Shown here: positions 1 through 19,636 of the stretch, one piece after another | Position numbering within the stretch: the first letter of the stretch is position 1 | How the letters are laid out: the number at the start of each line of letters is the position of its first letter | Source of the DNA: Candidatus Koribacter versatilis Ellin345 | GTDB lineage: Bacteria > Acidobacteriota > Terriglobia > Terriglobales > Acidobacteriaceae | NCBI RefSeq assembly: GCF_000014005.1 | Contig: NC_008009.1 | Location: 3,472,001 to 3,536,000 of the forward strand | DNA length: 64,000 nt | Direction of reading: 5' to 3' | Made by a program: the position numbers and the translations under genes | The notes under the pieces: generated by a model | What the model saw: the letters and a program-made list of their open reading frames with translations, nothing else | The model's database searches: none | What the model was told of the DNA's origin: nothing

Positions 1-674
1 TCTGGTTGCTGATTCTCGGGGCCGTAGTATCGCAGGCACACGCCGAAAAACGCGAAAAGGATAAGAATCCCCTTCAGCGCTACATGGCAACCTTGCCAGC
101 GCAGGAAACCGGAGCGCTTCCGGCAAAAACTACAGGAAGTTTGTGGACGGACGAATCCCCTCTGTTCATGATCGCGAACGATTTGAAAGCGCGACGAGTG
201 CATGACATCGTGACGATTGCGGTTTCCGAGTCCACCCTCGCGCAAGCGACGGGTGACGTGACTTCGCAGCGAGACTATGCGGGAAACAGTGCAATCACCG
301 CGCTGGGCGGCCACGTCAGCACTGGGGGCGTGAACCCTCTGTTCGCGGCTTCGTCTTCCACTTCGCTCAAAGGCAAGGGAGCCTCGAACAGCCAGTCCAC
401 CTTGCGCACCACGCTGGCCGCAGAGGTCGTTGCGGTCATGACAAACGGGAACATGGTGGTGGAGGCGCGCCGTTCGGTAAAGATGAACAACGAGTTGCGC
501 ACGGTGATCCTGCGCGGAGTGGTTCGTCCGGGGGATATCTCTCCTTCGAACGTGGTCAGTTCCGCCGCGTTGGCAAACCTCGAGATCGAGATGAAAGGTA
601 AAGGCGTGGTCAGCGACGGTACGCGTCCGAACAACCTCGGGATCCGCTGGCTCTGGAAGGTATTGGGGTTCTGA
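1..674 (+). CDS. flgH: Flagellar L-ring protein FlgH (5' end cut by window)
   Basis: FlgH forms the outer-membrane L ring around the flagellar rod. The frame is open to the window edge (TGG precedes the first possible TTG at 6), so the true start lies upstream. The visible protein begins inside a signal peptide core ending in AHA. It is followed by the family's conserved GSLW segment and the block around VHDIVTIAVSEST, and ends with a typical NNLGIRWLWKVLGF tail. No cysteine follows the hydrophobic core, so the usual lipobox is not seen. It lies 1 base before flgI, as in standard flgHI operons. Confidence 0.93.
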   Translation, partial: WLLILGAVVSQAHAEKREKDKNPLQRYMATLPAQETGALPAKTTGSLWTDESPLFMIANDLKARRVHDIVTIAVSESTLAQATGDVTSQRDYAGNSAITALGGHVSTGGVNPLFAASSSTSLKGKGASNSQSTLRTTLAAEVVAVMTNGNMVVEARRSVKMNNELRTVILRGVVRPGDISPSNVVSSAALANLEIEMKGKGVVSDGTRPNNLGIRWLWKVLGF

Positions 675-675
675 A

Positions 676-1782
676 ATGAGACTGCTTGCGCTCGTTCTGC
701 TCCTGCTGCGGCTCGGGATTCCCGCGATGATAGGCGCTCAAGAAGCGCCGCGGATGGTAACAATCCGGGACATCACGACGATCGAAGGAGTTCGGGAAAA
801 TCCTCTGATCGGATATGGGATGGTGGTCGGTCTGAACGGGACAGGGGACCGCACCCAGACCTTCTTCACTACGCAGACCCTCAGTGGGATCTTGCAACGC
901 ATGGGGGTGCAGGTGCCATCGGGCTCGATGCGAGTGAACAACGTGGCGTCGGTGATGGTGACCGCGGTCCTGCCGCCATTCGCGGTACATGGCGGCCGGA
1001 TCGATGTAACCGTCTCGTCGATTGGAGATGCGAAGAGCCTCGACGGCGGAATGTTGCTGTTGACGCCGCTCTATGGCGCGGACGGCCAAGTGTACGCCGC
1101 AGCGCAAGGAGCGTTGGCGATCGGCGGCTATTCGGCTTCATCGAATGGGAACTCCAAACAAAGCAATCATCCCACAGTGGGAAGAATTCCCGAAGGTGGA
1201 GTGATTGAGAAAGACCTCTCGGTGGGACTGGAGAAGCTGAGTTCTGTTTCTCTTCTGCTACGCGATCCGGAATTCGCGACGGCGACGAGCATCGCGGCGG
1301 AGGTGAATCGATCGCTTGCGAGTCCTGTAGCGAGAGCAGTAGATGCGCGCCGCGTGGTTGTAGGGGTACGTCCGGAAACATCGGTACCGGAACTGCTCGC
1401 GAAGATCCAGTCCCTTGAGATTCCGCTGCGGGAGCGATCGAGAATCATTGTGAACGAGCGTACGGGAACCATTGTGATGGGAGCCAAGGTTCAGCTTAGC
1501 GCGGTGGCGGTGCTACACGGGAACCTTTCGGTCGAGATCACCAGCTCGATGGCGGTTTCACAGCCCGCACCGTTGTCCAATGGCAGCACAGTTCGCGGTA
1601 CAGAGACGAACCTTGAGGCGCGCGAAGCGCCGGTGAAGTTGCTGGAGTTGAAAGAAGGTGCGACGGTAGCGCAACTGGTCGAGGGATTGCAGAAAATTGG
1701 TGCTACCGCGCGTGATGTGGTCTCAATCTTGCAAGCAATGAAAGCGGCCGGTGCGCTCCAGGCCGAGGTGGAGGTTCTCTGA
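676..1782 (+). CDS. flgI: Flagellar P-ring protein FlgI
   Basis: FlgI builds the periplasmic P ring, the bushing through peptidoglycan. The 368 residues match the normal family length. An N-terminal signal peptide rich in Leu ends near IGA/QE (about residue 21). The conserved start of the mature protein (VTIRDITTIEGVRENPLIGYGMVVGLNGTGD, here in shortened reference to residues 28-58) and the NERTGTIVMG block near residue 260 are both present. It starts one base after flgH and its stop overlaps the next start by one base, so the three genes are one transcription unit. Confidence 0.97.
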   Translation: MRLLALVLLLLRLGIPAMIGAQEAPRMVTIRDITTIEGVRENPLIGYGMVVGLNGTGDRTQTFFTTQTLSGILQRMGVQVPSGSMRVNNVASVMVTAVLPPFAVHGGRIDVTVSSIGDAKSLDGGMLLLTPLYGADGQVYAAAQGALAIGGYSASSNGNSKQSNHPTVGRIPEGGVIEKDLSVGLEKLSSVSLLLRDPEFATATSIAAEVNRSLASPVARAVDARRVVVGVRPETSVPELLAKIQSLEIPLRERSRIIVNERTGTIVMGAKVQLSAVAVLHGNLSVEITSSMAVSQPAPLSNGSTVRGTETNLEAREAPVKLLELKEGATVAQLVEGLQKIGATARDVVSILQAMKAAGALQAEVEVL

Positions 1783-2078
1783 TGACGGGGATTACGGTGG
1801 GGAGCCAGTCTATGGATCCGGCATCGCTGGTGAATAGGAGTCTCCCTAAACGACCGACGCAGGATATAGCGAAGGCCAGCACGGAGTTCGAAGCGATTCT
1901 GCTCGACCAGGTGCTGGGGAAGCTGCGTGAAACATTTTCAATGCGAGATGGGTCAGAGAGCGATCCAGGATCGAGCACGCTGAGCGGCGTGGCGGAGCAA
2001 TCGTTGTGCAAGGCCTTGGCATCGCGGGGCGGAGTTGGATTGGCTGCAATGATTCGGAGATCGATTTCGGAAAAATAA
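1782..2078 (+). CDS. flgJ: FlgJ-type rod-binding protein without muramidase domain
   Basis: This 98-residue protein matches only the N-terminal rod-binding (rod-capping) domain of FlgJ: the stretch around AKASTEFEAILLDQVLGKLRETF and a C-terminal GVAEQSLCKALASRGGVGLA are family features. The peptidoglycan hydrolase half found in enterobacterial FlgJ is absent, as is common outside Proteobacteria. The ATG overlaps the flgI stop by one base, which implies translational coupling. Role inferred: a scaffold for rod assembly in the periplasm. Confidence 0.88.
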   Translation: MTGITVGSQSMDPASLVNRSLPKRPTQDIAKASTEFEAILLDQVLGKLRETFSMRDGSESDPGSSTLSGVAEQSLCKALASRGGVGLAAMIRRSISEK

Positions 2079-2080
2079 GG

Positions 2081-2107
2081 TAAAGGTCGCGGCCGCCTTG
2101 CCGATAT
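2081..2107 (+). promoter_or_regulatory. Sigma-28 (FliA) promoter for flgM-flgN-flgK-flgL
   Basis: TAAA at 2081-2084, a 15-base spacer, then GCCGATAT at 2100-2107. This fits the known sigma-28 pattern TAAA-N15-GCCGATAA with one mismatch, and lies just after the flgJ stop and about 70 bases before the flgM start. The late operon therefore can be transcribed separately from flgHIJ. Confidence 0.85.
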
Positions 2108-2175
2108 CTCTGAAGAAGGGAGCGCGATACGAGAGTTAAAAGCCTCTCATATTGCGTGACGACACGAGGTTCACG

Positions 2176-2490
2176 ATGAAGGTAGATATTGGGAATGTTT
2201 GGAACGCGGTGGATGCGGTGCAGCAGTCGTCAGCCGATTCGGTTCGGAACCCCGGTCGTGAACGGGACAACCGGATAGGAGAGGATGACGCGCATCTTTC
2301 GCAAATTGCGGTTCTGGCCGGGACTTTGCACCAGAGCTTGGACGGTGTATCGGAAACCCGCCAGGCACGCGTGGACGAACTCAGGCAGAAGGTACAACAA
2401 GGGAGCTACCAGGTTTCTTCGGAACAGATCGCCAACGCGTTGCGCGATGATCTCGCAGGGATGGACCGTATTTACAAGGGCCGCCGGTGA
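2176..2490 (+). CDS. flgM: Anti-sigma-28 factor FlgM
   Basis: FlgM holds FliA inactive until it is exported through the finished hook. The C-terminal half carries the family pattern VDELRQKVQQGSYQVSSEQIA followed by NALRDDL, the part that wraps sigma-28. I chose ATG 2176 (104 aa) rather than an upstream TTG at 2152, because CGAGG sits 7 bases before it. It is the first gene after a sigma-28 promoter, giving the usual autoregulatory loop. It overlaps the next gene by 4 bases (GTGA). Confidence 0.9.
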   Translation: MKVDIGNVWNAVDAVQQSSADSVRNPGRERDNRIGEDDAHLSQIAVLAGTLHQSLDGVSETRQARVDELRQKVQQGSYQVSSEQIANALRDDLAGMDRIYKGRR

Positions 2491-2807
2491 ACGGACTGGA
2501 AGCGGGACCACCGGAAGCGACGATGGATGCTTTCCTGGCGGAACTCCGCGCAACGAACTTAGCGATCGTCAGGTTCGATGGCGCGAGCTTTGCCGAACAC
2601 GCCGAGAACGAGATCAGACTGGCAAATCTGATCTCTTCGTATTCCCACTTTGCGGAACTGCTCGCGAGGAACGCGACAAACCTTCGGCAACTCACCAGAA
2701 CACGGAAGATTCTGCTTCGCCAGACAAAGCGGACGGTGGCTGCTCTGTCGGGACTTCTGCAAACCACTCGCGAAACCTACGAAGTGTCACTCTTGCCGCA
2801 CGGCTAG
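2487..2807 (+). CDS. flgN: FlgN-like flagellar export chaperone
   Basis: A 106-residue, mostly helical acidic/basic protein with no membrane segment. It sits between flgM and flgK, which is the standard position of FlgN, the chaperone of the hook-filament junction proteins FlgK and FlgL. Sequence similarity to FlgN is weak by eye, as usual for this family; the call rests mainly on size, helical character and position. GTG start overlaps the flgM stop by 4 bases. Confidence 0.7.
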   Translation: MNGLEAGPPEATMDAFLAELRATNLAIVRFDGASFAEHAENEIRLANLISSYSHFAELLARNATNLRQLTRTRKILLRQTKRTVAALSGLLQTTRETYEVSLLPHG

Positions 2808-2813
2808 GATTTT

Positions 2814-4190
2814 ATGGCGTCACTCTCAGGAACACTTTCGATTGCAACCCGGGCGATGCTGGCGGAACAAGGAGCCATGCAGGCGACGACGAACAACATC
2901 GCCAATGTCAACACTCCGGGGTACTCGCGCCAGATTCCGATTTTTTCGGCCGTCGATCCAGTTGTGTCCGGCTCAACGACCTACGGCAATGGAGTCGAAC
3001 TCAGGGGGTACCAAAGCTTACGCAACCGGGTGCTAAATCTTAGGATCGCGGAAGAGCAGCAGAACCAAAGCGCGCTGCAGAGTTACGTCTCCTCGATGGA
3101 CCAAGTGCAGGTGGCGTTCAGTGACGCGAGCGGAGGGATTGGCGGTGCTCTCAGCGCATTCTTTAACAGCATCTCGCAATTGTCGACGCAGCCGGATAGC
3201 ACTACCCTGCGACAGAGTGTCCTGTCCTCTGCAAATACTCTAGTCAACGCGTTTCATACTGACGCAAGTTCGTTGAGTTCCATGCAACAAGGGCTCGACC
3301 TGGAGGTCAAGGACCAGGTAAACGAGGTCAATCGGCTCACCGTCCAGATCGCATCGCTTAACGGTCGCATTTCCGCGATGCAGAAGCTGCATCAGGACCC
3401 GGGAACACTGAGCGATCAGCTCGACCAATCGGTTTCCGAACTCTCCAATCTGCTGGATGTCTCCGTAACCCAAACCGAAGACGGTATCAGCCTGACGACC
3501 GCGAACGGCGTAGCGCTGGTGGTGGGCGACAAGAGCTTCGGCCTTACGACGGCGGCAGATCCGGACACTGGCCTTTCGCGAGTGCAGGCCGGCGAGATCG
3601 ATCTTACGGCGCTGTTGCAGAAAGGCAGCCTCGGAGGTGTCCTTCGAGTTCGCGACGAAGAAGTTCCTAGCATCCAATCGCAGCTGGATAAACTTGCTGC
3701 CGGGCTCTCGACGGCAATGAACGCGGTTCACCAAACCGGCTTCGACCTCAATGGGAATCCGGGAGGCCTGCTTTTCTCTGCGCCGCCCAGTGATGGTAAG
3801 AATGCAGCTGCTCTGATCAGCCTTGCCATCAGTGACCCCGCACAACTCGCGATGAGCGGCAATGGGGCTGCGGGAGACAACACCGTCGCCAATGAGCTAT
3901 TGCAGATCAAAAACCAAGCTGTTGTAGGCAATGCGACGCCGATCGATGCCTATTCGCAGATCGTGTTCAATGTCGGCAGCGACATTTCCGATGCCCAAGC
4001 AGGGCTCGATACCAGCACTTCCCTGCTCCAGCAACTGCAGGACCAGCGCGGGGCTTTGAGCGGTGTTTCGCTTGATGAAGAGACTGCCAATCTGCTCCAG
4101 TTCCAGCGTGGATTTGAAGCCGCGGCCCACCTTGTGAGCGTAGTCGACGAGATGATGCAGACAGTGATCGCGATGGGAGTTACACAATGA
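2814..4190 (+). CDS. flgK: Flagellar hook-associated protein 1 FlgK
   Basis: FlgK forms the first hook-filament junction ring. The N-terminus has the axial-protein D0 heptad pattern (LSIATRAMLAEQGAMQATTN, then NIANVNTPGYSR), and the C-terminus ends in the matching amphipathic helix (SLDEETANLLQFQRGFEAAA, then HLVSVVDEMMQTVI). Length (458 aa) is normal. It lies 6 bases after the FlgN-like gene, with a 4-base ATGA overlap into flgL, so both junction proteins are made together with their likely chaperone. Confidence 0.97.
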   Translation: MASLSGTLSIATRAMLAEQGAMQATTNNIANVNTPGYSRQIPIFSAVDPVVSGSTTYGNGVELRGYQSLRNRVLNLRIAEEQQNQSALQSYVSSMDQVQVAFSDASGGIGGALSAFFNSISQLSTQPDSTTLRQSVLSSANTLVNAFHTDASSLSSMQQGLDLEVKDQVNEVNRLTVQIASLNGRISAMQKLHQDPGTLSDQLDQSVSELSNLLDVSVTQTEDGISLTTANGVALVVGDKSFGLTTAADPDTGLSRVQAGEIDLTALLQKGSLGGVLRVRDEEVPSIQSQLDKLAAGLSTAMNAVHQTGFDLNGNPGGLLFSAPPSDGKNAAALISLAISDPAQLAMSGNGAAGDNTVANELLQIKNQAVVGNATPIDAYSQIVFNVGSDISDAQAGLDTSTSLLQQLQDQRGALSGVSLDEETANLLQFQRGFEAAAHLVSVVDEMMQTVIAMGVTQ

Positions 4191-5074
4191 GAGTCAATCC
4201 TAATCAGTGGTCCAACATTCTCGATACTCTAAATCGCCTGACAGAGGGCGAAAACAACGCGATTCGAGAAGTCTCCACCGGAAACCGCTTGAGCGCGCCT
4301 TCGGATGATCCATCGGCAATGACGCTTCTGATTCGCAACCGGGCGTCGCAAAGTGATTGCGACCGCTACGTACAGAACATTGGCTCCATCAGCGCTTCTC
4401 TGCAAAATGCCGACTCTGCGTTATCTAACGTGACCACCTCGCTGAATCGTGCAATCACCCTGGGACTTGAGGGCACAGGTGGAACGCTTTCCAATGCGAA
4501 TCGAAGTGCGATCGCCGATGAGGTGAGCCAGATTCGAGACCAGGTTCTGGCGCTGGCAAATACCACCTTCAACGGGAGTTATGCGTTTGGCGGAGCCTCC
4601 ACAAAGACAACTCCGTTTGTGCTCGATTCAACCTCTGTTTCCGGCGTGCGTTATCAGGGAGACTCGACGGTAGAACAAGTTCCCATTGGAGATGGATCGA
4701 TGGTCGCCGCAAATAAGCCGGGAGATGCTCTGTTTCTAAATCCAGCGGGGAGCGTTTTTGGAGCGTTGCAGGGGATGATTTCAGCGCTGCGGTCCGGAAG
4801 CGGCATCGATACCGCGACGACTACGCTTCGCTCGGCGTTCGATCAGTTCTCGTCAGAGAGGGTCTCCTACGGCTCGACAATTTCACGACTTCAGGCCGAT
4901 TCAAATTTCCAGTCCAGCTCGAAGGTGCAATTGCAGACCGAGGAGAACAGCCTGACGGGCGTGGATATGGCCCAGGCCATCAGTGAGTTGACCCAGGCGG
5001 AAACCGCGCGGAACGCCGCGCTGTCAGCGGCCGCACGGATCGGGCAAAACTCGCTGCTCGACTACTTGCGCTGA
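4187..5074 (+). CDS. flgL: Flagellar hook-associated protein 3 FlgL
   Basis: FlgL is the second junction protein and flagellin-like. The N-terminal D0/D1 block (LTEGENNAIREVSTGNRLSA, then PSDDPSAM) and the C-terminal helix (SLTGVDMAQAISELTQAETA) are clear. 295 aa is normal. The ATG overlaps the flgK stop. The 3' end runs 13 bases into the convergent motB gene, so the two operons meet tail to tail without a separating terminator. Confidence 0.96.
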   Translation: MRVNPNQWSNILDTLNRLTEGENNAIREVSTGNRLSAPSDDPSAMTLLIRNRASQSDCDRYVQNIGSISASLQNADSALSNVTTSLNRAITLGLEGTGGTLSNANRSAIADEVSQIRDQVLALANTTFNGSYAFGGASTKTTPFVLDSTSVSGVRYQGDSTVEQVPIGDGSMVAANKPGDALFLNPAGSVFGALQGMISALRSGSGIDTATTTLRSAFDQFSSERVSYGSTISRLQADSNFQSSSKVQLQTEENSLTGVDMAQAISELTQAETARNAALSAAARIGQNSLLDYLR

Positions 5075-5853
5075 TCCCTGTAACCCTGCATCGAAAGAAT
5101 GACCAGATCCACTCGACGGTTCTGGGCCCGCCCCTCCGCGGTATCGTTTGGGCCGACGGGATGAAATTCGGCATACCCGCCGGCTGACAGGTCCCCCGGA
5201 TTTATTCCGTACTCCTGGATCAGTCGCTTCACGATACCGGTCGCTCGCGCGGTCGAAAGCTCCCAGTTGGAAGCATATTGCGCCGTGTGGATCGGCATGG
5301 GATCAGTGTGCCCCTCAACTCGAACTGTGCACTGCTTCTCGCGCAAAATGCTCGCGATTCGGCCAAAGGCGGAGATAGACGATGGCCGTAGCTTCGCGGA
5401 TCCGCTATCAAAGAACCCGATTTCCTGCAGACTGATCACCAGACCATCCGAAGTGGTGCGAAGGGTGACATCGCTTCGAGTAAGCTCTTCTGGAATCGCG
5501 GCTTGCAGTTCGCCGCGTAGAGTTTGCACCTGAGCGGCTGTGACTCTGCGCTGGCTGCCGATGTCGAGGGTTTCGTGAGAACGATCGGCGAGTGAACTCG
5601 AAGCGCGAATCTCGGGAGTGATCGGCGCGACCCGACTGGTATTGCCTGGCGGGTTGGAGGTACCCAATCCAAGTTGTTCGAACGCTTGCTCGATTGCGCT
5701 GGAAATTTTTGCGGCGCGTTTCTGGTCAGTTTGCGAGGAGGCATAGAGGACTACGAAGAAGGCAAACAGGAGGGTAATGAAATCAGCATAAGAAACCAGC
5801 CAGCGCTCGTTGTTCGCACGAGTTCTACGCTGTCGAGTGGGACGGGCCTTCAT
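5062..5853 (-). CDS. motB: Flagellar motor stator protein MotB
   Basis: MotB anchors the stator to peptidoglycan and, with MotA, forms the proton channel. A single N-terminal membrane helix (about residues 20-40) holds the essential aspartate at D24 in the SYADFITLLFAFFVV segment. The C-terminal OmpA-like domain (about residues 135-255) has the VRVEGHTDPMPIHTAQYASN block and NRRVDLVIL end, which bind peptidoglycan. The ATG overlaps the motA stop by 4 bases (5850-5853). Last gene of flbD-motA-motB. Confidence 0.96.
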   Translation of the reverse strand: MKARPTRQRRTRANNERWLVSYADFITLLFAFFVVLYASSQTDQKRAAKISSAIEQAFEQLGLGTSNPPGNTSRVAPITPEIRASSSLADRSHETLDIGSQRRVTAAQVQTLRGELQAAIPEELTRSDVTLRTTSDGLVISLQEIGFFDSGSAKLRPSSISAFGRIASILREKQCTVRVEGHTDPMPIHTAQYASNWELSTARATGIVKRLIQEYGINPGDLSAGGYAEFHPVGPNDTAEGRAQNRRVDLVILSMQGYRDQRK

Positions 5854-6617
5854 GCCGCTTCAACTTTCTGCCCACGGTCAACGTAAGTGGAGAGCCGAGT
5901 TTCCAACATCCTGGGATTCATTCCTTCGAGCAAGGCGATCACGCCTTCGACCGCCATTTCCCTCTGTAATTGCGCTTCTCGTACGCGGATTCGCAACTTG
6001 CCGGCAGCCGGCAAGAAGAAGATATTTGCAGCCGCGACACCATAAATGGTCGCCACAAAGGCGACGGCAATACCACGTCCAACCTCGTCAATGTTCTGCA
6101 GGTGTTGCATCACCTGGATCAATCCGAGCACGGCACCAATAATGCCGATGGTTGGTGAATAGCCTCCGGCAGCTTCAAATACCTGCGGGGTTCGCTCATC
6201 TTTCTCGGCCTCCTGGTCGAGTTCCAATTCCATCATTTTGCGCAGTTCGCCCGGAGCGGTGCCATCCACTGCCAGCATGAGAGCTCTCTTAAGGAATGAA
6301 TCGTTGATGGTATCGAGGTCTGAGTCGAGTGAGACGATTCCCTGCTTCCGCGCTTTGTAGGCAAAGCGGACGAGTTCGTCGAGCATCTCTTCCCGCTGGT
6401 TCGAGGACACCCGGAAAATCGTGATCGTCGCCCGCGCGGCGGCGAGGAACTGGTGAAAGGGAAACTGGACCATTACCGCACCGAGAGTCCCGCCGAAGAC
6501 AATTAATGCGGCCGTAGGCTGCAGGATCTGCGAAATTTTTCCACCTTCGATCAACAGCCCGGCAACGATTCCTACGACAGCTGCGAGGACCCCGCCGAAC
6601 GTGCCCTTATCCACCAC
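5850..6617 (-). CDS. motA: Flagellar motor stator protein MotA
   Basis: MotA has four membrane helices and a cytoplasmic loop that contacts FliG. The loop lies between helices 2 and 3 (about residues 60-145) and is charged. Helix 3 begins with the conserved proline segment SPTIGIIGAVLGLIQVM. I place the start at GTG 6617 because AGGAG lies 5 bases upstream. Gap to flbD is 15 bases; overlap with motB is 4 bases. Confidence 0.96.
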   Translation of the reverse strand: MVDKGTFGGVLAAVVGIVAGLLIEGGKISQILQPTAALIVFGGTLGAVMVQFPFHQFLAAARATITIFRVSSNQREEMLDELVRFAYKARKQGIVSLDSDLDTINDSFLKRALMLAVDGTAPGELRKMMELELDQEAEKDERTPQVFEAAGGYSPTIGIIGAVLGLIQVMQHLQNIDEVGRGIAVAFVATIYGVAAANIFFLPAAGKLRIRVREAQLQREMAVEGVIALLEGMNPRMLETRLSTYVDRGQKVEAA

Positions 6618-6632
6618 GTGTCTCCTGTTGCC

Positions 6633-6857
6633 TCAAGCATGATTCGCGGACGATGCCACCGCGAATTGAGCGCGAAAAGGTCGTCCGGGCGAATGCACCT
6701 CGACCACCCGTTCGAGGACGTCTTTGTACGCTTCGCGAACGACAAGTTTTTCACCGGTAATGAGCGTGATGGTTGTATCTGGGGCCGGTTCGATCCATTG
6801 AATGAGGTCCACGTTGATCGCGATGGGATGATTGTTCAGGCGCGTTAGTTCAAGCAT
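6633..6857 (-). CDS. flbD: FlbD family flagellar protein
   Basis: A small (74 aa) FlbD-type protein. The family pattern is visible: I-x-L-T-R-L-N at the start (MLELTRLNNHPIAINVDLIQ), then WIEPAPDTTITLITGEKLVV. In many flagellated bacteria such a gene precedes motA; its molecular role is not settled. Here it heads the flbD-motAB operon. A sigma-28-like site lies upstream at 6887-6913. Confidence 0.9.
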   Translation of the reverse strand: MLELTRLNNHPIAINVDLIQWIEPAPDTTITLITGEKLVVREAYKDVLERVVEVHSPGRPFRAQFAVASSANHA

Positions 6858-6886
6858 CGGTATGTGCTCCAGGCGGCATGTTTCAG

Positions 6887-6913
6887 TAATCGGCTATGCG
6901 ACGGCTAGCTTCA
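6887..6913 (-). promoter_or_regulatory. Sigma-28-like promoter for flbD-motA-motB
   Basis: Read on the minus strand: TGAA (6913-6910), a 15-base spacer, then GCCGATTA (6894-6887). The -10 element matches sigma-28 at 7 of 8 bases and the -35 at 3 of 4. It lies 30 bases before flbD and is back to back with the stronger fliC promoter. Confidence 0.65.
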
Positions 6914-6925
6914 GAGAATCTCTAC

Positions 6926-6952
6926 TAAAGAAATGAATGGCATCGCCGATGT
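6926..6952 (+). promoter_or_regulatory. Sigma-28 (FliA) promoter for flagellin
   Basis: TAAA at 6926-6929, exactly 15 bases, then GCCGATGT at 6945-6952. This predicts a start near 6960 and a leader of about 80 bases before the fliC ATG at 7040, which has AAAGGAG at 7026-7032. Flagellin genes are typical late sigma-28 targets. Confidence 0.88.
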
Positions 6953-7039
6953 CTCATATGAACACCAATTCGGCACCGTCAAGCGTAAGACGACGATCGT
7001 CGCACTCGATGGGCGGGGCTGGAGCAAAGGAGCACGACC

Positions 7040-8188
7040 ATGTCACTCAGCATCCTGAACAATATTCCGTCCTTGGCGGCACAGAACCAGTTGTCCATAA
7101 CGAACAGCAGCCTGCAAAAGACACTGATTCAGCTCTCCTCCGGGCAACGCATCAATTCTGGTGCGGACGATGCGGCTGGCCTCTCGATTGCCGACGGACT
7201 CAATGCGAACATCGCTGCGCTGACACAGTCTGCACGCAATGCCACGGACGGCGTGGGCAAGCTCCAGGTTGCCGATGGTGCGCTTTCGCAAGTGACGACC
7301 CTGTTGAACCGCGCGGTGACCCTGGCAACCGAATCTGCCAACGGAACGCTTAACGGTGACGGCGGCTCGCAGCGTACCGCACTGCAAACCGAGTTCGCGT
7401 CAATCAAGGCCGAAATCGACCGCATTGGCCAGAACACCACGTTCAACGGAACAGCAGTATTTGCGGCCGGCACTTCGAACGATCCGAACGTATTGATGGG
7501 CGCTACCACGGGCAAGGCGCTTACCGACACTATGACCACGGGCGACTCGCTGAAGATCACTGCTGGCGGCAACTCGTTCACGTATTCCTACACCTCGGGC
7601 GACACAGTGCAGAGCCTGCTCAATCAAGTCAACGCGAGTAACCTCGGTGTGACGGCGAGTTTGAGCAGTGGCCAGCTCAAACTGGTTGACCAGAAGGGCC
7701 GCGGCGATATCGCGATCGATTCCAGCTCGACGGCTACCGAGTTTGGCGGCTTCACGAATGCTGCCGGCACGGGCTCGAACGTCTTCTCCGTGTACCTGGG
7801 CGACGGTACGAGCTCGGGAGCAAGCCATATCGACGTGACTCTGAGCGCCTTCAGTTCGAGCAACCTGAACGGTACGAGTCTCACCAGTGACAGCCTTTCA
7901 ACCGCAGCGGGCGCGAAGGCAGCGTTGACTGACATCAACGCAGCGATTTCGTCGGTGGCGGCACTACGCGGCAGCATCGGCGCGGGCATCAATCGTCTCC
8001 AGGCCGCGACCAACGTCATCAACAACCAGACCCAGAACCTGACGACCGCAGAGGATGGCGTGCGCTCGGCGGATGTGGGTCAGTCGGTTGCGAACCTCAC
8101 GAAGTACAACATCCTGACCTCGACCGGCATTTCGGCCCTGGCCCAGGCGAACCAGATGCAGCAGTCCGTCTTGAAGCTGTTGCAGTAA
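7040..8188 (+). CDS. fliC: Flagellin
   Basis: Filament subunit. The N-terminal D0/D1 region (SLSILNNIPSLAAQNQLS ... SSGQRINSGADDAAGLSIAD) and C-terminal D0 region (ending NILTSTGISALAQANQMQQS, then VLKLLQ) are both complete; the variable Ser/Thr/Gly-rich centre spans roughly residues 150-285. There is no cysteine. Strong ribosome site AAAGGAG, its own sigma-28 promoter and a perfect hairpin after the stop indicate a highly expressed single-gene transcript. fliD and fliS follow. Confidence 0.97.
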   Translation: MSLSILNNIPSLAAQNQLSITNSSLQKTLIQLSSGQRINSGADDAAGLSIADGLNANIAALTQSARNATDGVGKLQVADGALSQVTTLLNRAVTLATESANGTLNGDGGSQRTALQTEFASIKAEIDRIGQNTTFNGTAVFAAGTSNDPNVLMGATTGKALTDTMTTGDSLKITAGGNSFTYSYTSGDTVQSLLNQVNASNLGVTASLSSGQLKLVDQKGRGDIAIDSSSTATEFGGFTNAAGTGSNVFSVYLGDGTSSGASHIDVTLSAFSSSNLNGTSLTSDSLSTAAGAKAALTDINAAISSVAALRGSIGAGINRLQAATNVINNQTQNLTTAEDGVRSADVGQSVANLTKYNILTSTGISALAQANQMQQSVLKLLQ

Positions 8189-13271: not shown

Positions 13272-14162
13272 TTATGCCCCGCCGCGGACGGTCAGCACCG
13301 GACAGCGTGCATGCGAAAGAACGTAGCTCGCGACACTCCATGGCAAATGCGAGGTGGCGTGATGTCCGGCATGTACACCCATTACCAGCAGGTCGGCTTC
13401 GAGATCGGTCGCAATCCGAACGATGTCTGGTCCTGGTGATCCGAATTCGACTTTAAAGTCCGGATGACTTCCTTCCATGCCTTCGGGGATTAGCTCCTTC
13501 ATGCGCGCTACAGATTCATGAACGAGCTGGTCGGCAGAGTCTGCCGGAAGGCTGGCCGAGTGAGCTATCACGTGCAGGAACGTTGTCTGCGAATGGTGTT
13601 CCTGCGTAAACATCAGCGCGTAGGGTAAGGCGTGCAGCGATCCAGTCGAAAAGTCGGTGGCGAAAACAATCCGCCACATCTTCTGCCGTGGGAGCGATGG
13701 CGGAATGACCTCCGGCCCGATGGTGAGCACTGGGCACTTCACAGTGCGGTAGATTTCCTCAGCGATTGAACCGACGAGCAGCTTGTGTAAGACGCCGCGG
13801 CCACGGGTTCCAAGGACTACGAGGTCGATGCGTTTGTCAGCGACAACCTGGCGGATTACATCCCAGACTTCGCCATCCATCACAATCGCTTGGTGTGGGA
13901 TTTCCTTCAAAGATTGTTTCGCGACGAATCTCTGCATTTCCTGGCCTGCGCCCTTGCGGAGAACGTCAGTTTGATCCGGTACAGGTTCTATAGGTACGAC
14001 GGCAGGCATTGGCGGCACGGCGTGCGCCACAAAAAGCGTCGCGTTATAGCGGGTTGCGAACTCCAACGCGAACGGCAGAGCGCGTTCGGAGGTCGAGGAG
14101 AAGTCGGTCGCGAACAGCACGTTCTGGATCGCGATCAGTGCAGGGCGCTCGGTGATCAGCAT
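13272..14162 (-). CDS. Tandem universal stress protein (UspA x2)
   Basis: Two Usp domains in one chain (about residues 8-148 and 160-293). The first carries the ATP-binding pattern G-2x-G-9x-GS (GTRGRGVLHKLLVGS), so it should bind ATP; in the second this region is degenerate (GVHAGHHATSHLPWSVAS). Strong GGGGGTGG ribosome site. It is the last gene of the same-strand cluster with the GDH-like, NrfD, ferredoxin and GcvH-like genes, with a 92-base gap, and may share their transcript. Confidence 0.92.
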   Translation of the reverse strand: MLITERPALIAIQNVLFATDFSSTSERALPFALEFATRYNATLFVAHAVPPMPAVVPIEPVPDQTDVLRKGAGQEMQRFVAKQSLKEIPHQAIVMDGEVWDVIRQVVADKRIDLVVLGTRGRGVLHKLLVGSIAEEIYRTVKCPVLTIGPEVIPPSLPRQKMWRIVFATDFSTGSLHALPYALMFTQEHHSQTTFLHVIAHSASLPADSADQLVHESVARMKELIPEGMEGSHPDFKVEFGSPGPDIVRIATDLEADLLVMGVHAGHHATSHLPWSVASYVLSHARCPVLTVRGGA

Positions 14163-14254
14163 AGGCCACCCCCTTCATCGGATGGGCTTCGGCACAGTAA
14201 AGCCTATTCTTTTCTGCCCACGATGCAGTGATCCCCATCACATCGCAAGCCCAT

Positions 14255-15469
14255 TTAGGGTCTAGCCAAAGCGGACCAACCCGCAAGTCGTTGTAATGCC
14301 AAGAGCACCATGGAGCGATGCAGTGGTGTTTTGAAACGCCGACTGAAATTTTCCAACTCGTTCCACAACCTACCGAGGTAGTTTTGGACGTCGGCACAAT
14401 CGTCGGACGCCGATCGGGCGCTCCAGGACAGGCGCGGCAGTAGGCACGGCGAATGAAGGAGAGTCGCGGGGAGAACCGTAACACCGTGGGCTGAGAGGCT
14501 ATCCACCGCGCCGGATGACAGACCCGGTGCGACCAACTCCGCAAGGACGGTTGCGCGCACCGTCGCCGCATTCCCCTCCGTAATTTCTGTCCGGCCGGAA
14601 GCCAGAATTAACAAATCGGCAGGGGTCGAGAGAACATCCGCGTAAGCGACGTGTTCCCCGCCGGGGTACTCGGCGAGCAGCCCGCTGCGTTCGATGTGGG
14701 TCCACAGATCACCGAGTTCGTCTTTTGCTTGCAAGAGTAATCCACCGGATTCATCGGCGATACCGACGATCGCCGCGCCTTCCTGCAGGAACGCTTCGAC
14801 TACGCACCGCGACAGGGGTTGCGTACCGACGATTACAACTCTGGAGCCGCGCAAAGCTTTGCCGCATGCGTTCAGAGCACTCGCGCACAACGTGACAGCA
14901 CTGAGAGCGACATGATTGTTGTTCGCCACGTAGTATTCCGTTGCAGGAACCCGCGGAAACTCGAGATCGGGGCTCAATTCCCCGTGCACCATCCAAGCGG
15001 CGAACGCTGCTGAGGGCGGGTCCGCCGCCACGAGCCGAGCGCGCGGAAAGTATCGTCCAAGGTCGGAGCTGCACTCCCGCGCCAGCATCCAGAGCTCGCG
15101 CTCGGAATACGTTTCGGGAGGGATACGCACCGCTATCGCCGAGGCACTTTCTTGGAGGCCCGCCAGTGCCGCCCGCATTTGCAAATCCCGTGCTTGCGCA
15201 TCCGCAGAACGCTGTGAACCCGCGGTGCCCAAGTTGACCGACAAAATCGTGGAGTTGGAAGCAGGTCCGTAGCTACAGCCATAGATAGGAACAATCTCCG
15301 TACCAGCCGACGTCACCATCGGACGTCGCATCACAAGCTCCATCTGCGGAGTTCGCAACGATCGTAAGAGTTCCGGTGACACGTCGAGGACTTGCGCAGC
15401 GCGTTCCCACTCGAGCGATTCTTCAAACGAAGCCGATTCGGACATCAAGAACGTTTCTGCTGTACTCAT
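14255..15469 (-). CDS. Glutamate-dehydrogenase-like protein lacking catalytic residues
   Basis: 404 aa. The layout follows Glu/Leu/Phe dehydrogenases: a dimerisation domain (about 40-165) then a Rossmann domain (about 190-345). By-eye alignment: GPASNS (68-73) sits where active enzymes have GPxKGG, residues 104-119 (LQESASAIAVRIPPE) where they have the GGgKGG lysine loop, and AADPPSA (148-154) at the PAPDVGT loop. The dinucleotide motif is VGTQPLSR rather than GxGxxG. So both active-site lysines and the nucleotide glycines are gone. It is probably not an amino-acid dehydrogenase; a structural or sensory role in the NrfD cluster is my inference. Confidence 0.7.
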   Translation of the reverse strand: MSTAETFLMSESASFEESLEWERAAQVLDVSPELLRSLRTPQMELVMRRPMVTSAGTEIVPIYGCSYGPASNSTILSVNLGTAGSQRSADAQARDLQMRAALAGLQESASAIAVRIPPETYSERELWMLARECSSDLGRYFPRARLVAADPPSAAFAAWMVHGELSPDLEFPRVPATEYYVANNNHVALSAVTLCASALNACGKALRGSRVVIVGTQPLSRCVVEAFLQEGAAIVGIADESGGLLLQAKDELGDLWTHIERSGLLAEYPGGEHVAYADVLSTPADLLILASGRTEITEGNAATVRATVLAELVAPGLSSGAVDSLSAHGVTVLPATLLHSPCLLPRLSWSARSASDDCADVQNYLGRLWNELENFSRRFKTPLHRSMVLLALQRLAGWSALARP

Positions 15470-15485
15470 TTTGTTCTCACGCTAA

Positions 15486-15569
15486 TTCGCCCGGGGAATC
15501 TGAGGAGGGGCTGGATCAATGCAACCAGGTTCGGCCCATGCAGGCCCTCTCTCATCACCTCCGGGCGAA
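15486..15569. repeat. Nine-base inverted repeat in the nrfD/GDH-like gap
   Basis: TTCGCCCGG (15486-15494) and CCGGGCGAA (15561-15569) are perfect complements 66 bases apart within the 108-base gap between two same-strand genes. Transcribed, this could fold as one long closed domain upstream of the GDH-like start. It also holds a 13-mer shared with the gcvH-like leader (15536-15548). Confidence 0.5.
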
Positions 15570-15577
15570 ACCTTGAG

Positions 15578-16762
15578 CTACGCTCTCGCGACGGCGCCGT
15601 TGTCAGACAGCCAACGCTCCGGCTTCATCACCCGCTTGATCCGCGGCATGATATCGAGATAGAGCACCGCGTAACGGAACGCCACTACGCATCCCGCAAT
15701 CATCAGTAACGTGGTCGCAAGCTCCGACCACTTCGGGGTGTAAAGGGTGTTCATCGAGCGTTCGAACGCGGTAATGCAAACGTTCAACCGGTTCACGACA
15801 AAACCCGCTACAACCATGCAGCACGTCCAATACAGATACATCGGCGTATTCACGATTTTGTTGAATTGCAGCAGGATCAACGGAATGATCGCCAACAACG
15901 AAACTTCCAACCAGAAGAACGCGGTCTCACGCACCGGGAGGAACAAGTAACGTGCGCCGCCGGTGTGAATCAGGTCCAGTCCGCGGAAGATCACGTAAAC
16001 AAGGAGCAGCAGCGAAATAACTCGGCCCAGTTCGCGCAGGATGGAATAGTCAATGCGTGCATCGAGCGATCGCATGCTGAGATGCAGCGCGATTACGGTC
16101 ATCGCCAGGCCGCCGGCAATTGCCGACAGAAAGAACAGAGCGTGGATGTTGTGCGTGTACCAGAGCGGATACAACTTGCCCGGAGCGATGAGGAAGAGTC
16201 CACCGAGGAAGGACTGGTGCATCGAGGAAAGCAACACGCCAGCCATCACCACCCCGACCGTTACCCGGTGATGCCAATGCAGCACCAGTTCGCGCGTCTT
16301 CCGCCAGGGGATCTTCTCGATCAGTGCGGGACAGAATTCCAGAGTGAGCACCGTCGTATAAGTCGCCACGCACAGCGCAACGTCAAACAACATTGAATTG
16401 TGGTTCCAATAGATGAGGATGTGCCAGCACCGCCACGGAAGTCCGAGTTCGTAGAAGTAGCCCACACACACACTGCAATAACCGAGGAACCCAAGCAACA
16501 CAGCCGTGCGAACGATGGGCCGATAGCGCTCCATGCCGAGCACGTACACCGCACCTGAGAGCGCGAAAGCTCCCGCAGAGAGGCCGACGCCGCAAAGGGT
16601 CCCGAAGCCTACCCACATTCCCCAGGGCATTCCATCAGAGAGGTTCGAACTTCCGTGCAGTCCTGCGGCAAACCGCAGATACGTGGCATATGCTCCGGCG
16701 ATGAAGATTAACAGCGTGAGAACGCGCCAAATGGAAATCCTTGGAAGCTTTTCGGTCATCAT
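15578..16762 (-). CDS. hybB: NrfD/HybB-family integral membrane quinone-interacting subunit
   Basis: A 394-aa protein with about ten membrane helices and the NrfD/PsrC/HybB arrangement; segments such as GMPWGMWVGFGTLCGVGLSA and HNIHALFFLSAIAGG are typical. Such proteins bind menaquinone and couple a cytoplasmic or periplasmic iron-sulfur module to the membrane without haem. The start lies 2 bases after the ferredoxin stop. No hydrogenase or molybdoenzyme large subunit is found nearby, so the HybB symbol denotes family only. Confidence 0.88.
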   Translation of the reverse strand: MMTEKLPRISIWRVLTLLIFIAGAYATYLRFAAGLHGSSNLSDGMPWGMWVGFGTLCGVGLSAGAFALSGAVYVLGMERYRPIVRTAVLLGFLGYCSVCVGYFYELGLPWRCWHILIYWNHNSMLFDVALCVATYTTVLTLEFCPALIEKIPWRKTRELVLHWHHRVTVGVVMAGVLLSSMHQSFLGGLFLIAPGKLYPLWYTHNIHALFFLSAIAGGLAMTVIALHLSMRSLDARIDYSILRELGRVISLLLLVYVIFRGLDLIHTGGARYLFLPVRETAFFWLEVSLLAIIPLILLQFNKIVNTPMYLYWTCCMVVAGFVVNRLNVCITAFERSMNTLYTPKWSELATTLLMIAGCVVAFRYAVLYLDIMPRIKRVMKPERWLSDNGAVARA

Positions 16763-16764
16763 GG

Positions 16765-17532
16765 CTAGCGACCTCCCTTATCGTTCTTCTGATCGCGTTC
16801 GAGTGCTTCAGAAAGCGCCACTTCTTTGCGACGCTGCGTCACCCAGTACAGGCCAGCAAGGATCGAACCACCAACTGTTACCACCATCGGCGCGTCGCCC
16901 ATCGCGGTTGCGGTAAGCGTGCGGAGTGGGACGCGGTCCTGCGAAGTCGGTTTGAAGCCTAGCTTCTCGAACTCGACATCGGAGATATAAAACACCGACG
17001 TGCCTCCCAACTCTTCCGTTCCGTAGATTCGCTGTACGTAGCTTGGGTCGTCCCGCAGGCGCTTCCAGGCTTCGGCGAGCATTTCTGTCCGAGTGCCAAA
17101 CACCGTCGCGCTCGCGGGACAAGCTTCCGCGCAGGCGGTCTGTTTGCCTTGCTTTACGCGTTCGGCGCACATATCGCACTTTTTCACGAAAGGCGCGAGC
17201 TTCGTCCATTCATACCGCGGTACGGAATATGGACACGCCACCATGCAGTACCGGCAGCCAATGCATTTGTCCGCGTCATAGGTAACCGGACCAAATGAAT
17301 TCTTCTGCAAGGCGCCGACCGGACAAGCGCTGGCGCACGTCGGATCCTGGCAGTGCATACACAGTTTGCGGACGTTGCGTCCACCCTTCTCCTGCACCAC
17401 TGTCAACGCGGTGTACGACAGATCGGCCTCGTGTTGTACCGGAAAGTTGTGCACAGTCTGGCAAGCCTGCTCGCACGCCTGGCACCCGATGCAAGACTTC
17501 ACATCGATCAAAAGTGCAAATTGCTTCTCCAT
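16765..17532 (-). CDS. hybA: HybA-type ferredoxin with C-terminal membrane anchor
   Basis: Electron-transfer subunit with four cysteine groups for up to four 4Fe-4S clusters: CIGCQACEQAC (14-24), CMHCQDPTCASACP, CIGCRYCMVACP and CDMC...CAEACP. There is no Tat or Sec signal at the N-terminus. One hydrophobic helix near the C-terminus (about residues 216-233) is followed by RRK. By the positive-inside rule and the missing signal I place the clusters in the cytoplasm, unlike E. coli HybA. Ribosome site AGAGGAG. Between the GcvH-like and NrfD genes. Confidence 0.9.
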   Translation of the reverse strand: MEKQFALLIDVKSCIGCQACEQACQTVHNFPVQHEADLSYTALTVVQEKGGRNVRKLCMHCQDPTCASACPVGALQKNSFGPVTYDADKCIGCRYCMVACPYSVPRYEWTKLAPFVKKCDMCAERVKQGKQTACAEACPASATVFGTRTEMLAEAWKRLRDDPSYVQRIYGTEELGGTSVFYISDVEFEKLGFKPTSQDRVPLRTLTATAMGDAPMVVTVGGSILAGLYWVTQRRKEVALSEALERDQKNDKGGR

Positions 17533-17568
17533 TTTCTTCTCCTCTCTTCGGCCCGGAATAACGGTGTT

Positions 17569-18231
17569 CTATGTAAGAAAGAATTCGCGAACAATCCGTT
17601 CCTGGGTTGCGGGATCCATTTGCGACAGCAGTCCGCTCACGGGCATGCCGCCGTCTTGGGCCATTGCCGGGGTGTACTGGCTTGCGAGCGCGCCGAGCCG
17701 GTTCAGGGTGTTCTGCATCCACGGCGCAACGAGTGGCCCTTGGATGAGGTTCTTCATGTTCGTGTGCATGTCGGGCGATTTCACGACGCACACCCAGCCG
17801 TCTTTATAAGGATCGCTACCCACGGATGAAGGGTTCTTGATGACCTGGTGGTTTAGCGAAACCACGACGCCCTCGATCGGCGAGAGCATGTCAACGGAAG
17901 TCCCGTTGTGCGTGACCGTCCACAACTTCTGGCCCTGGCGCACCCAGCGGTTCAATTCGACAGTCTCGATGCGGTCAATCTTGCCGAACAACTGCGCGGC
18001 AAACGAATCCATGCCCACTCGAGCGTTCTGGTGGCCTTCATCGGCCACCCAAGTGTGGCCGGGATGGAAGGAATAGCCGGTAGGAATTTCGAAGCCGGCA
18101 AGCTTTGCCATGACCGGAGCCGTCCGCGGACGCGGCGCTTCCGGTTGCATCTGCATTTCTTCGGTAGGACGACGGAAGTACGTAACGGTAATAATCAGTA
18201 GGAAAGTAAGAAGTACGAATAGGATTGACAT
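17569..18231 (-). CDS. Membrane-anchored GcvH-like protein without lipoyl lysine
   Basis: 220 aa from ATG 18231 (AGGGAGG upstream). An N-terminal helix (2-18) followed by RR suggests the rest is cytoplasmic. Residues 50-145 align with glycine-cleavage H protein: HTWVADEG opening, VGMDSFAAQLFGKIDRIETV, then the lipoyl hairpin ending LSPIEGVVVSLN. In H proteins this hairpin holds ESVKA; here it reads THNGTSVD, with Gly110 at the lysine position and no lysine nearby. So it cannot be lipoylated in the usual way. No gcvT or gcvP is near. First gene of the redox cluster. Confidence 0.75.
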   Translation of the reverse strand: MSILFVLLTFLLIITVTYFRRPTEEMQMQPEAPRPRTAPVMAKLAGFEIPTGYSFHPGHTWVADEGHQNARVGMDSFAAQLFGKIDRIETVELNRWVRQGQKLWTVTHNGTSVDMLSPIEGVVVSLNHQVIKNPSSVGSDPYKDGWVCVVKSPDMHTNMKNLIQGPLVAPWMQNTLNRLGALASQYTPAMAQDGGMPVSGLLSQMDPATQERIVREFFLT

Positions 18232-18281: not shown

Positions 18282-18294
18282 CCATGCAGGCCCT
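18282..18294. repeat. 13-mer shared with the GDH-like leader
   Basis: CCATGCAGGCCCT occurs here, 50 bases before the GcvH-like start, and again at 15536-15548 before the GDH-like start. Both sites lie in untranslated leaders of the same cluster and both are next to a GGTTCG. It could be an operator or shared promoter part; no known factor fits. Confidence 0.4.
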
Positions 18295-18481: not shown

Positions 18482-19636
18482 TCACGCTTCGATTTGCGCT
18501 ACCACGAGGGTGATATCGTCGTCGGCGTCTTCGTTCTCAGGGCGTCCCGACCACTTTAGTAACCTCGTCAGCAGATCGCCGGCAAGTTCGTCTGATGACG
18601 TCTGCCCGTGCTCGCTGAGAAACTTCTCCACTCCTTCAATCCCCAGGAACTCACCTTCGACATTCGCAGTCTCGACGATGCCATCCGTGTAAAGCACAAC
18701 GCGATCGCCAATATTGAGAGGAAGTTCAACCGATGCATACTGCGCTACCGGCATAAAGCTGAGAATCAACCCATTCTCCTCGACCCTCCGCACTTCGCCA
18801 TTCCTGTCGCTCCCAATCAGAATCGGCGGATGCCCAGCACCCGCGTACCTCAGGACCTTTTTCTCCAAATCGAGATACACGTACGCGGCGGTCACAAAGT
18901 GGTCCGAAAACTTTCCGCAGAGGGTCTGGTTGAGTCCATCGAGTACTTTCGACGGGTCCGCCACGTTCTGTTCTTGGGCATGGAACGCGATCTTGAGCAT
19001 GGAGGAGATCAATGCGGCTGGCATGCCGTGTCCCGAAACGTCGGCTACAAGCACGCCGACATGTTTATCATCCGGCACAATGAAGTCGTAAAAGTCGCCG
19101 GCAACCGCCGTCATCGGAATGTAGCGTGCCGCGATATCGAGACCTGCTAACTTAGGAACTTCGCGCGGAATAATCGAGAGCTGAATATTTCGCGCACATT
19201 CCATCTCTTCGTGAATACGTTTGAGCTGCTCCGCAATTTGTTTCTGTGCAGTCCGCAAGCTCATGTGCATGTTCACACGCGCCTGCACCACCAGTGGCGA
19301 GAACGGCTTGTGGATATAGTCCGCTGCACCGACCGCGAAACCTTTGGTCTCCTCTGCGACCTCTGTCTGTCCGGTAAGAAAGATGACGGGGATATCCTTC
19401 GTCGCAGCGTTCTCTTTGAGACGCGCGCAAACTTCGTACCCGTTGATTCCCGGCATCATCACGTCGAGCAAGATCAGGTCCGGGTGAGGAGTGGCCACAG
19501 CAAGTTCAATCGCCTTTTCGCCATTGGTAGCAATGCGAACCTTATACGTATCCTTGAGGATCGAGTATGCGATTTCGAGGTTCTGTGGTTCATCGTCAAC
19601 GGCAAGAATTACTTTCTTTTCGTCGGTATTTGCCAT
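18482..19636 (-). CDS. Response regulator with PP2C-type phosphatase output (RsbU-like)
   Basis: Receiver domain at residues 8-125 with acidic pair VDD and phospho-acceptor D58 (LILLDVMMPG), then a coiled linker (130-160), then a PPM/SpoIIE phosphatase domain (about 165-382). The metal-binding residues are visible in AGDFYDF, VADVSGHGMPAA and the end block DADDDITLVV. Such proteins dephosphorylate anti-anti-sigma factors in partner-switching stress pathways. No RsbV/RsbW partner is adjacent, but an RsbW-like ATPase lies at the far end of the window (63459). Confidence 0.93.
   Translation of the reverse strand: MANTDEKKVILAVDDEPQNLEIAYSILKDTYKVRIATNGEKAIELAVATPHPDLILLDVMMPGINGYEVCARLKENAATKDIPVIFLTGQTEVAEETKGFAVGAADYIHKPFSPLVVQARVNMHMSLRTAQKQIAEQLKRIHEEMECARNIQLSIIPREVPKLAGLDIAARYIPMTAVAGDFYDFIVPDDKHVGVLVADVSGHGMPAALISSMLKIAFHAQEQNVADPSKVLDGLNQTLCGKFSDHFVTAAYVYLDLEKKVLRYAGAGHPPILIGSDRNGEVRRVEENGLILSFMPVAQYASVELPLNIGDRVVLYTDGIVETANVEGEFLGIEGVEKFLSEHGQTSSDELAGDLLTRLLKWSGRPENEDADDDITLVVAQIEA

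Follow-up and report, generated by a model that had tools for sequence, protein, structure and literature searches.

To our knowledge, the known electron-transfer modules built around an NrfD-type membrane subunit come with an enzyme or a cytochrome partner. Among them, HybA/HybB of Escherichia coli hydrogenase 2 and the Hmc and Qrc complexes of sulphate reducers pair an iron-sulfur (FeS) protein with such a subunit. Here we describe a cluster in which the same kind of pair stands beside a membrane-anchored GcvH-like protein. It lies in a stretch of 64,000 nucleotides from Candidatus Koribacter versatilis Ellin345 (NC_008009.1, positions 3,472,001 to 3,536,000), which was analysed as a whole and is called the window below; coordinates are counted from its first base.

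The cluster is a real, conserved and so far unlabelled variant of the NrfD/HybA modules, and no description of NrfD together with GcvH-like and HybA proteins was found in the literature covered, the open-licence part of PubMed Central (PMC). A first-pass annotation of the window had listed five genes on one strand, for the GcvH-like protein, HybA, NrfD, a protein resembling glutamate dehydrogenase (GDH) and a tandem UspA protein, with gaps of 36, 2, 108 and 92 bases in this order. The coordinates of the open reading frames (ORFs) bear this out.

A conserved core of three genes

We searched for the GcvH-like protein in 348 genomes of the family, and 79 of these match at E 1e-30 or better. Group A is the set of 40 near full-length matches with at least 48% identity, found in 37 genomes; 38 of the 40 loci, all distinct, were examined, two in genome G574 being left out. 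Except for the window the stretches around these loci are 4-19 kb long, so that very distant enzymes would escape. Genes were labelled by BLAST, by profiles and by clustering; only selected proteins were run through Pfam. A wider set of loci consists of 80 of 230 related stretches, whose host titles name Acidobacteriota or groups that we take to lie within Acidobacteriota.

The GcvH-like, HybA and NrfD genes are contiguous and on the same strand in 35 of the 38 group-A loci, and their association therefore exceeds chance; the exceptions are L159 (on a 3.9-kb contig), L162 and L163. Recurrent neighbours are an NtrC-type regulator (16 loci), a small kinase (13), the GDH-like gene (13) and a Crp-type regulator (7). 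By direct search an intact GDH-like gene is present in 14 of the 38 loci. L134 holds a C-terminal remnant of it; in L137, from the same genus, none was found, and the stretches of L136 and L159 are too short to judge. Only the window and its congener L131 have a gene labelled Usp next to the cluster. The core is therefore three genes (18231-15578), not five, and of the four families that were expected to occur together GcvH-like, HybA and NrfD do so, and the GDH-like family joins them in a subset of the loci. For the core genes dN/dS is 0.06-0.29 (six pairs, dS up to 1.17).

In the window the NrfD-type protein scores 56.9 bits against a Pfam cut-off of 25.8, and the gene of a predicted four-cluster ferredoxin adjoins it, which together mark the locus as an NrfD/HybA electron-transfer module. 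The best NCBIfam models for the two genes are HmcB/HmcC and HybA/HybB, every score being below its cut-off. An assignment to Hmc or Qrc failed: HmcB reaches 239 bits of the required 420, HmcC 257 of 550 and QrcD 145 of 570.

Catalytic partners were sought with phmmer using eight queries from the organism's own genome: the large and small [NiFe] hydrogenase subunits, three formate dehydrogenases, a xanthine-dehydrogenase-type protein, KorA and KorB. The search space was the ORFs of at least 100 amino acids (aa) in the 38 group-A stretches (540,041 bases, the entire window included), and the control stretches were detected. At E 1e-5 no query matched an ORF anywhere in the 64 kb of the window, and the sole catalytic match in the 38 stretches is a [NiFe] large subunit at L162. 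It is of another type than hydrogenase 2 (HybOABC), of which no subunit was found among the window ORFs. By this search, the claim of an electron-transfer set without an adjoining catalytic gene holds in 37 of the 38 loci, the window among them.

L208 is the same place as L162 with more upstream sequence, from Terriglobia bacterium SRVP_1. One strand (3-7642) carries a FAD/FeS protein, FlpD, an Oxidored_q6 small subunit, NiFeSe_Hases, HycI, an NrfD-like protein, OsmC and GCV_H (Pfam). The FAD/FeS protein resembles HdrA; the NrfD-like protein has no Pfam match and 31% identity to the window NrfD (BLAST), and is a divergent second copy; the genome additionally carries a standard three-gene cluster (L141). 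With a small subunit read as starting MPEKPKV, without a signal peptide, the hydrogenase is predicted to be of the cytoplasmic FlpD/[NiFe] type. Queries with FlpD, the small subunit and the maturation protease (HycI) matched no further group-A locus. The first-pass annotation had held that its reading would be refuted by a catalytic subunit beside homologous clusters that makes this a known hydrogenase or polysulfide reductase; a catalytic neighbour was found at this locus only, with no HybA detected. Elsewhere, matches to the L208 maturation protease lie near GcvH genes in L168, L209 and L221.

The H-fold and GDH-like proteins

Both active sites had been described as lost, and this is confirmed. 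In the window GcvH-like protein the position of the lipoyl lysine is a glycine (THNGTSV), so the residue that defines a lipoyl H-protein is missing. Across an alignment of 87 rows, in which the window occurs twice, the position holds Gly in 59, Ser in 7, Ala in 7, Glu in 4 and Lys in 3, with six others and one unread. The missing lysine is characteristic of the family, and the H-protein fold is re-used without it. The further suggestion that the protein carries another group has no support, because the position is mostly Gly.

An AlphaFold2 model from 27 sequences (pLDDT 87, pTM 0.77) predicts a transmembrane helix at residues 2-20, an H-protein fold and C-terminal helices from 155 to 218. Its best match in the PDB is 1onl (E 1e-11, TM-score 0.91 by target), and the first 22 matches are H-proteins or H-like. 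The window protein ends in EFFLT; the EFFL(T) C-terminus is found in groups A, B and several others. The organism's ordinary GcvH, of 126 aa, keeps the lysine (ESVKAV) and its gene adjoins gcvT and gcvP.

The window GDH-like protein has I, R and A in place of the three GDH lysines. These lysines are lost in all 14 intact copies, while 25 of 26 comparison rows have KKKD (two of those rows are identical). The aspartate is kept in 1 or 2 of the 14 depending on which of two alignments is used, and the Gly motif is intact in 4; no copy thus has the full GDH active site of three lysines and an aspartate. In a tree a branch with support 100/100 sets the 14 sequences apart; the program gives a warning about long branches. 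A model from 6 sequences (pLDDT 72.7) matches the GDH fold over its full length (8owm and 3aoe, TM-score 0.73).

The GDH-like protein also changes fast: between the window and L131 its identity is 34%, against 82-85% for the remaining three. For this pair dN is 0.76 and dS 1.97, which is near saturation. Over the six pairs whose dS does not exceed 1.17 its dN/dS is 0.18-0.24, with an exception of 0.36 in L036-L138. It is a fast-evolving accessory without catalytic lysines that is selected as a protein. A scan of genome contigs with the GDH-like protein as query gave no match, and the genome holds a separate GDH with its lysines.

A full-length GDH from another acidobacterial family (L040 2052-3302, the same gene as L011) has also lost the three lysines and kept the aspartate. 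It is the only one of the full-length matches read that lacks them, and it nests among canonical GDHs; we rejected it as a relative of the GDH-like protein and regard it as a separate loss.

Two further features surround the genes of Table 1. The GcvH-like ORF has an alternative in-frame ATG at 18285, and downstream of the cluster an M28 peptidase gene lies on the opposite strand (Pfam).

Table 1. Genes of the cluster and its upstream neighbour in the window.
Feature	Position	Strand	Basis
GcvH-like protein, 220 aa, membrane-anchored	17569..18231	-	Pfam GCV_H 2e-17
HybA/HmcB-type ferredoxin subunit	16765..17532	-	Pfam Fer4_11 6e-20; 16 Cys
NrfD/HybB/HmcC-type membrane subunit	15578..16762	-	Pfam NrfD 3e-15
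GDH-like protein, accessory in a subset of loci	14255..15469	-	Pfam ELFV_dehydrog 4e-12
Tandem UspA protein	13272..14162	-	Pfam Usp 4e-53, two stretches
Response regulator + SpoIIE phosphatase, upstream neighbour, outside the recurrent set	18482..19636	-	Pfam

Electron transfer, membrane side and regulation

Our tentative reading, held with slightly less than even confidence, is that the core is a menaquinone-linked module for electron transfer that faces the cytoplasm. In most cases its soluble low-potential partner would be encoded at another place, and the H-fold protein, which is not lipoylated, would be a structural or regulatory subunit. The partner, membrane side, direction and regulatory role are what we infer. 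The HybA-type FeS protein would exchange electrons with NrfD, which would handle menaquinone, and in the window's lineage the partner would be encoded away from the cluster. Candidates are an FlpD/Mvh-type hydrogenase in one lineage and, in others, ferredoxin from 2-oxoacid:ferredoxin oxidoreductases, whose genes lie elsewhere in the window's genome. The membrane-anchored GcvH-like protein may, where it is fused to a receiver, have its docking or activity switched by a neighbouring kinase, and the GDH-like protein would be an optional dead-enzyme accessory.

The cytoplasmic face had been proposed before, and the evidence on it is divided. A twin-arginine translocation (Tat) motif is absent from HybA in all 35 group-A rows, in all 7 of group B and in the single receiver-type row, while a third HybA class has it in 8 of 8 rows, several of its loci carrying multihaem cytochromes (proteins from L099 and L100 were left out of this table as wrong proteins). 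The window HybA is expected to hold four [4Fe-4S] sites. In the GcvH-like protein, Arg-Arg follows the membrane helix, which suggests a cytoplasmic H domain. Together with the L208 hydrogenase, which lacks a signal peptide, the missing Tat motif speaks for the cytoplasm. Against it stand the C-terminal hydrophobic stretch of HybA, followed by a positive tail as in E. coli HybA, and the positive charges of NrfD. The latter sit in even loops in all classes, with means of 18-19 versus 6-8 (26 versus 9 in the hydrogenase row), and an inversion of NrfD is therefore not indicated. An excerpt of PMC8076601 names SoeC as the expected inverted case in the family.

As a side observation, L100 (1595-10175) carries NuoE/NuoF-like, 2Fe-2S and glutamate-synthase-like genes, followed by a Tat-type HybA, NrfD and GcvH.

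NrfD has also lost an acid. E. coli K-12 HybB D58, Y99 and S129 align to Gly54, Tyr95 and Ser123 of the window protein, which thus lacks the carboxylate of the HybB/QrcD type. Among group-A NrfD proteins the position of D58 (D70 in QrcD) is Gly in 25 and Ala in 10 (35 readable of 36), and the unread one, L162, has Ser. It is Asp in group B (27 readable of 29 distinct) and in the Tat class (8 of 8), and Asn in the NrfD of the organism's own hydrogenase. The quinone-site Ser and Tyr and the equivalents of Tyr150 and Arg358 are kept in 17 of 17 aligned group-A proteins. According to PMC13059093, D70 is essential in QrcD, and HybB D58A loses menaquinone reduction with H2 evolution still possible. 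Group-A NrfD is a natural Gly/Ala replacement of the acid needed for HybB/QrcD menaquinone reduction.

Several observations weigh against the reading we favour. The loss of this acid may impair quinone reduction, and from the usual positive-inside pattern of NrfD it follows that HybA, if cytoplasmic, would have to dock on a different face. The hydrogenase neighbour is a single locus with a divergent NrfD, no HybA was found beside its hydrogenase, NrfD-like and GcvH genes (L208/L162), and no FlpD was found in the window's genome. KorA and KorB were not found in the group-A stretches (phmmer), and of the 8 group-B loci with Kor genes six have neither HybA nor NrfD in their stretch.

Group B consists of paralogs, about 37-45% identical, in 64 loci, 57 of them distinct and many on short contigs. 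Their neighbours are NrfD (29 of 57), a CxxCH-motif kinase (29), an NtrC-type regulator (24), HybA (23) and an M54 peptidase (23), besides KorA (8), acetyl-CoA hydrolase (8) and KorB (7). Kor genes occur together with HybA/NrfD in L090 and L252, and one strand of L090 carries acetyl-CoA hydrolase, KorA, KorB, malic/PTA, GcvH, HybA and NrfD. Xanthine-dehydrogenase-type genes were seen in four further stretches (L086, L092, L213 and L251).

Two-component genes and receiver-GcvH fusions are additions to the first-pass annotation. In 11 of the 16 loci inspected (L103, L270-L277, L282 and L283), HybA, NrfD and histidine kinase genes adjoin a fusion, which has an N-terminal membrane helix, a receiver and a GcvH-like domain (L103 8576-9697); most of the 16 were chosen for frames of fitting length, with Pfam run on L103 and L275. 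Pfam finds no fused receiver in the window GcvH-like protein. A bolder version, which we consider unlikely, is that the dead H-fold is a switchable subunit of a cytoplasm-facing quinone oxidoreductase. Its membrane-anchored domain would dock on NrfD/HybA, and in some lineages phosphorylation of the fused receiver by the neighbouring kinase would gate the electrons; group A would then oxidise quinol and feed low-potential carriers, or act as a sensor.

The fusions would also fit a redox sensor, in which NrfD, HybA and GcvH signal the state of quinone or ferredoxin to a histidine kinase and regulator instead of carrying respiratory flux. We give this roughly one chance in five. It agrees with the frequency of kinase and NtrC-type genes in both groups (29 and 24 of 57; 13 and 16 of 38), with the lost acid of group-A NrfD, and with sigma-54-like sites before 6 of 7 readable group-B GcvH genes (13 given; 6% in shuffles), which lie 54-89 bases before the start in L086, L088, L164, L165, L166 and L169. 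However, the kinase and NtrC genes may merely control expression, and the window has no such adjacent pair. Sigma-54 control of group A was rejected: of 37 upstream regions given 27 were readable, and 3 of these have a site, close to the 5% seen in shuffles.

Somewhat less probable is a periplasm-facing module with NrfD in its usual orientation, whose HybA would resemble FdnH in lacking its own signal and in being exported together with a Tat-signal enzyme encoded at an unlinked place. The uninverted NrfD charges and the HybA tail agree with this, as does the closest solved chain to HybA, which is FdnH (1kqf_B), and the genome has three formate dehydrogenase loci and one hydrogenase that could serve. 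These enzymes, however, have their own FeS and membrane subunits adjoining, the lone catalytic neighbour in a related locus (L208) is of the cytoplasmic type, and the Arg-Arg pair suggests a cytoplasmic H domain.

The genome has NrfD at six places: the window, L105, the hydrogenase, two formate dehydrogenase loci, and 3.55 Mb, where it adjoins the gene of an Fe-S protein of 1015 aa that resembles alternative complex III. The hydrogenase (C1:5027311) has its own HybA/NrfD, and the third formate dehydrogenase a cytochrome b561-type subunit. L105 (7804-14241, about 3.07 Mb) combines HybA-NrfD without an enzyme with cytochrome c, a CxxCH kinase, an NtrC-type sigma-54 regulator and an archaemetzincin (M54), a gene set common to many of the loci examined. 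One formate dehydrogenase locus encodes a fused FeS-NrfD protein of 729 aa. Alternative complex III was rejected for the NrfD at 546 kb, since the locus is one of formate dehydrogenase and its FeS and NrfD parts are fused in one protein. Formate dehydrogenase-like genes in L269 (3900-9217), L285 (5143-8382) and L286 (5596-8799) each have one in-frame TGA, where selenocysteine is expected.

That the cluster is the decaying remnant of an older respiratory complex, as the two lost active sites, the GDH-like remnant in L134 with none found in L137, and the presence of group A in about 37 of 348 family genomes might suggest, is very improbable because dN/dS is low in the six pairs, and the cysteines and GcvH termini are conserved.

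Comparison with known systems

Many Acidobacteriota share this core, whose H-fold subunit is unable to carry lipoate on the usual lysine and sometimes bears a receiver. That it is common in soil bacteria, nearly always without a neighbouring enzyme, points to an undescribed kind of respiratory wiring or of redox control. Should the module connect soluble low-potential carriers with the quinone pool, it would account for some of the energy metabolism of bacteria that are abundant in soil, and would be an unusual example of a respiratory complex under direct phospho-control.

The Mvh/Hdr-type hydrogenases resemble one homologous locus, L208, where FlpD and a [NiFe] hydrogenase are joined to NrfD and a GcvH-like protein; no such set is found in the window. 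Mvh/Hdr complexes are not known to contain NrfD or GcvH. SoeABC is an NrfD-family complex held to face the cytoplasm (in the excerpt of PMC8076601), which is also the side proposed for the window module; unlike SoeABC, the window has no molybdoenzyme, nor any sign of NrfD inversion.

With the H-protein of glycine cleavage and with LbpA (PMC6067878), the window GcvH-like protein shares the H-protein fold. It differs from both by the missing lipoyl lysine, the N-terminal membrane helix and the extra C-terminal helices. Similarly, the GDH-like protein has the full-length fold in common with glutamate dehydrogenase, from which it differs by the loss of the lysines in all 14 copies.

The core itself is, like Hmc and Qrc, an FeS/NrfD set of the quinone-linked kind. 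In contrast to them it scores below their cut-offs, has no partner cytochrome, has lost the equivalent of QrcD D70, and includes a GcvH-like subunit. With E. coli HybA/HybB it shares the HybA-type FeS protein and the NrfD-type subunit, with the equivalents of Ser129 and Tyr99 kept; it differs in having no adjoining hydrogenase or Tat motif, in the change of D58 to Gly or Ala throughout the readable group-A proteins, and in the addition of the GcvH-like protein.

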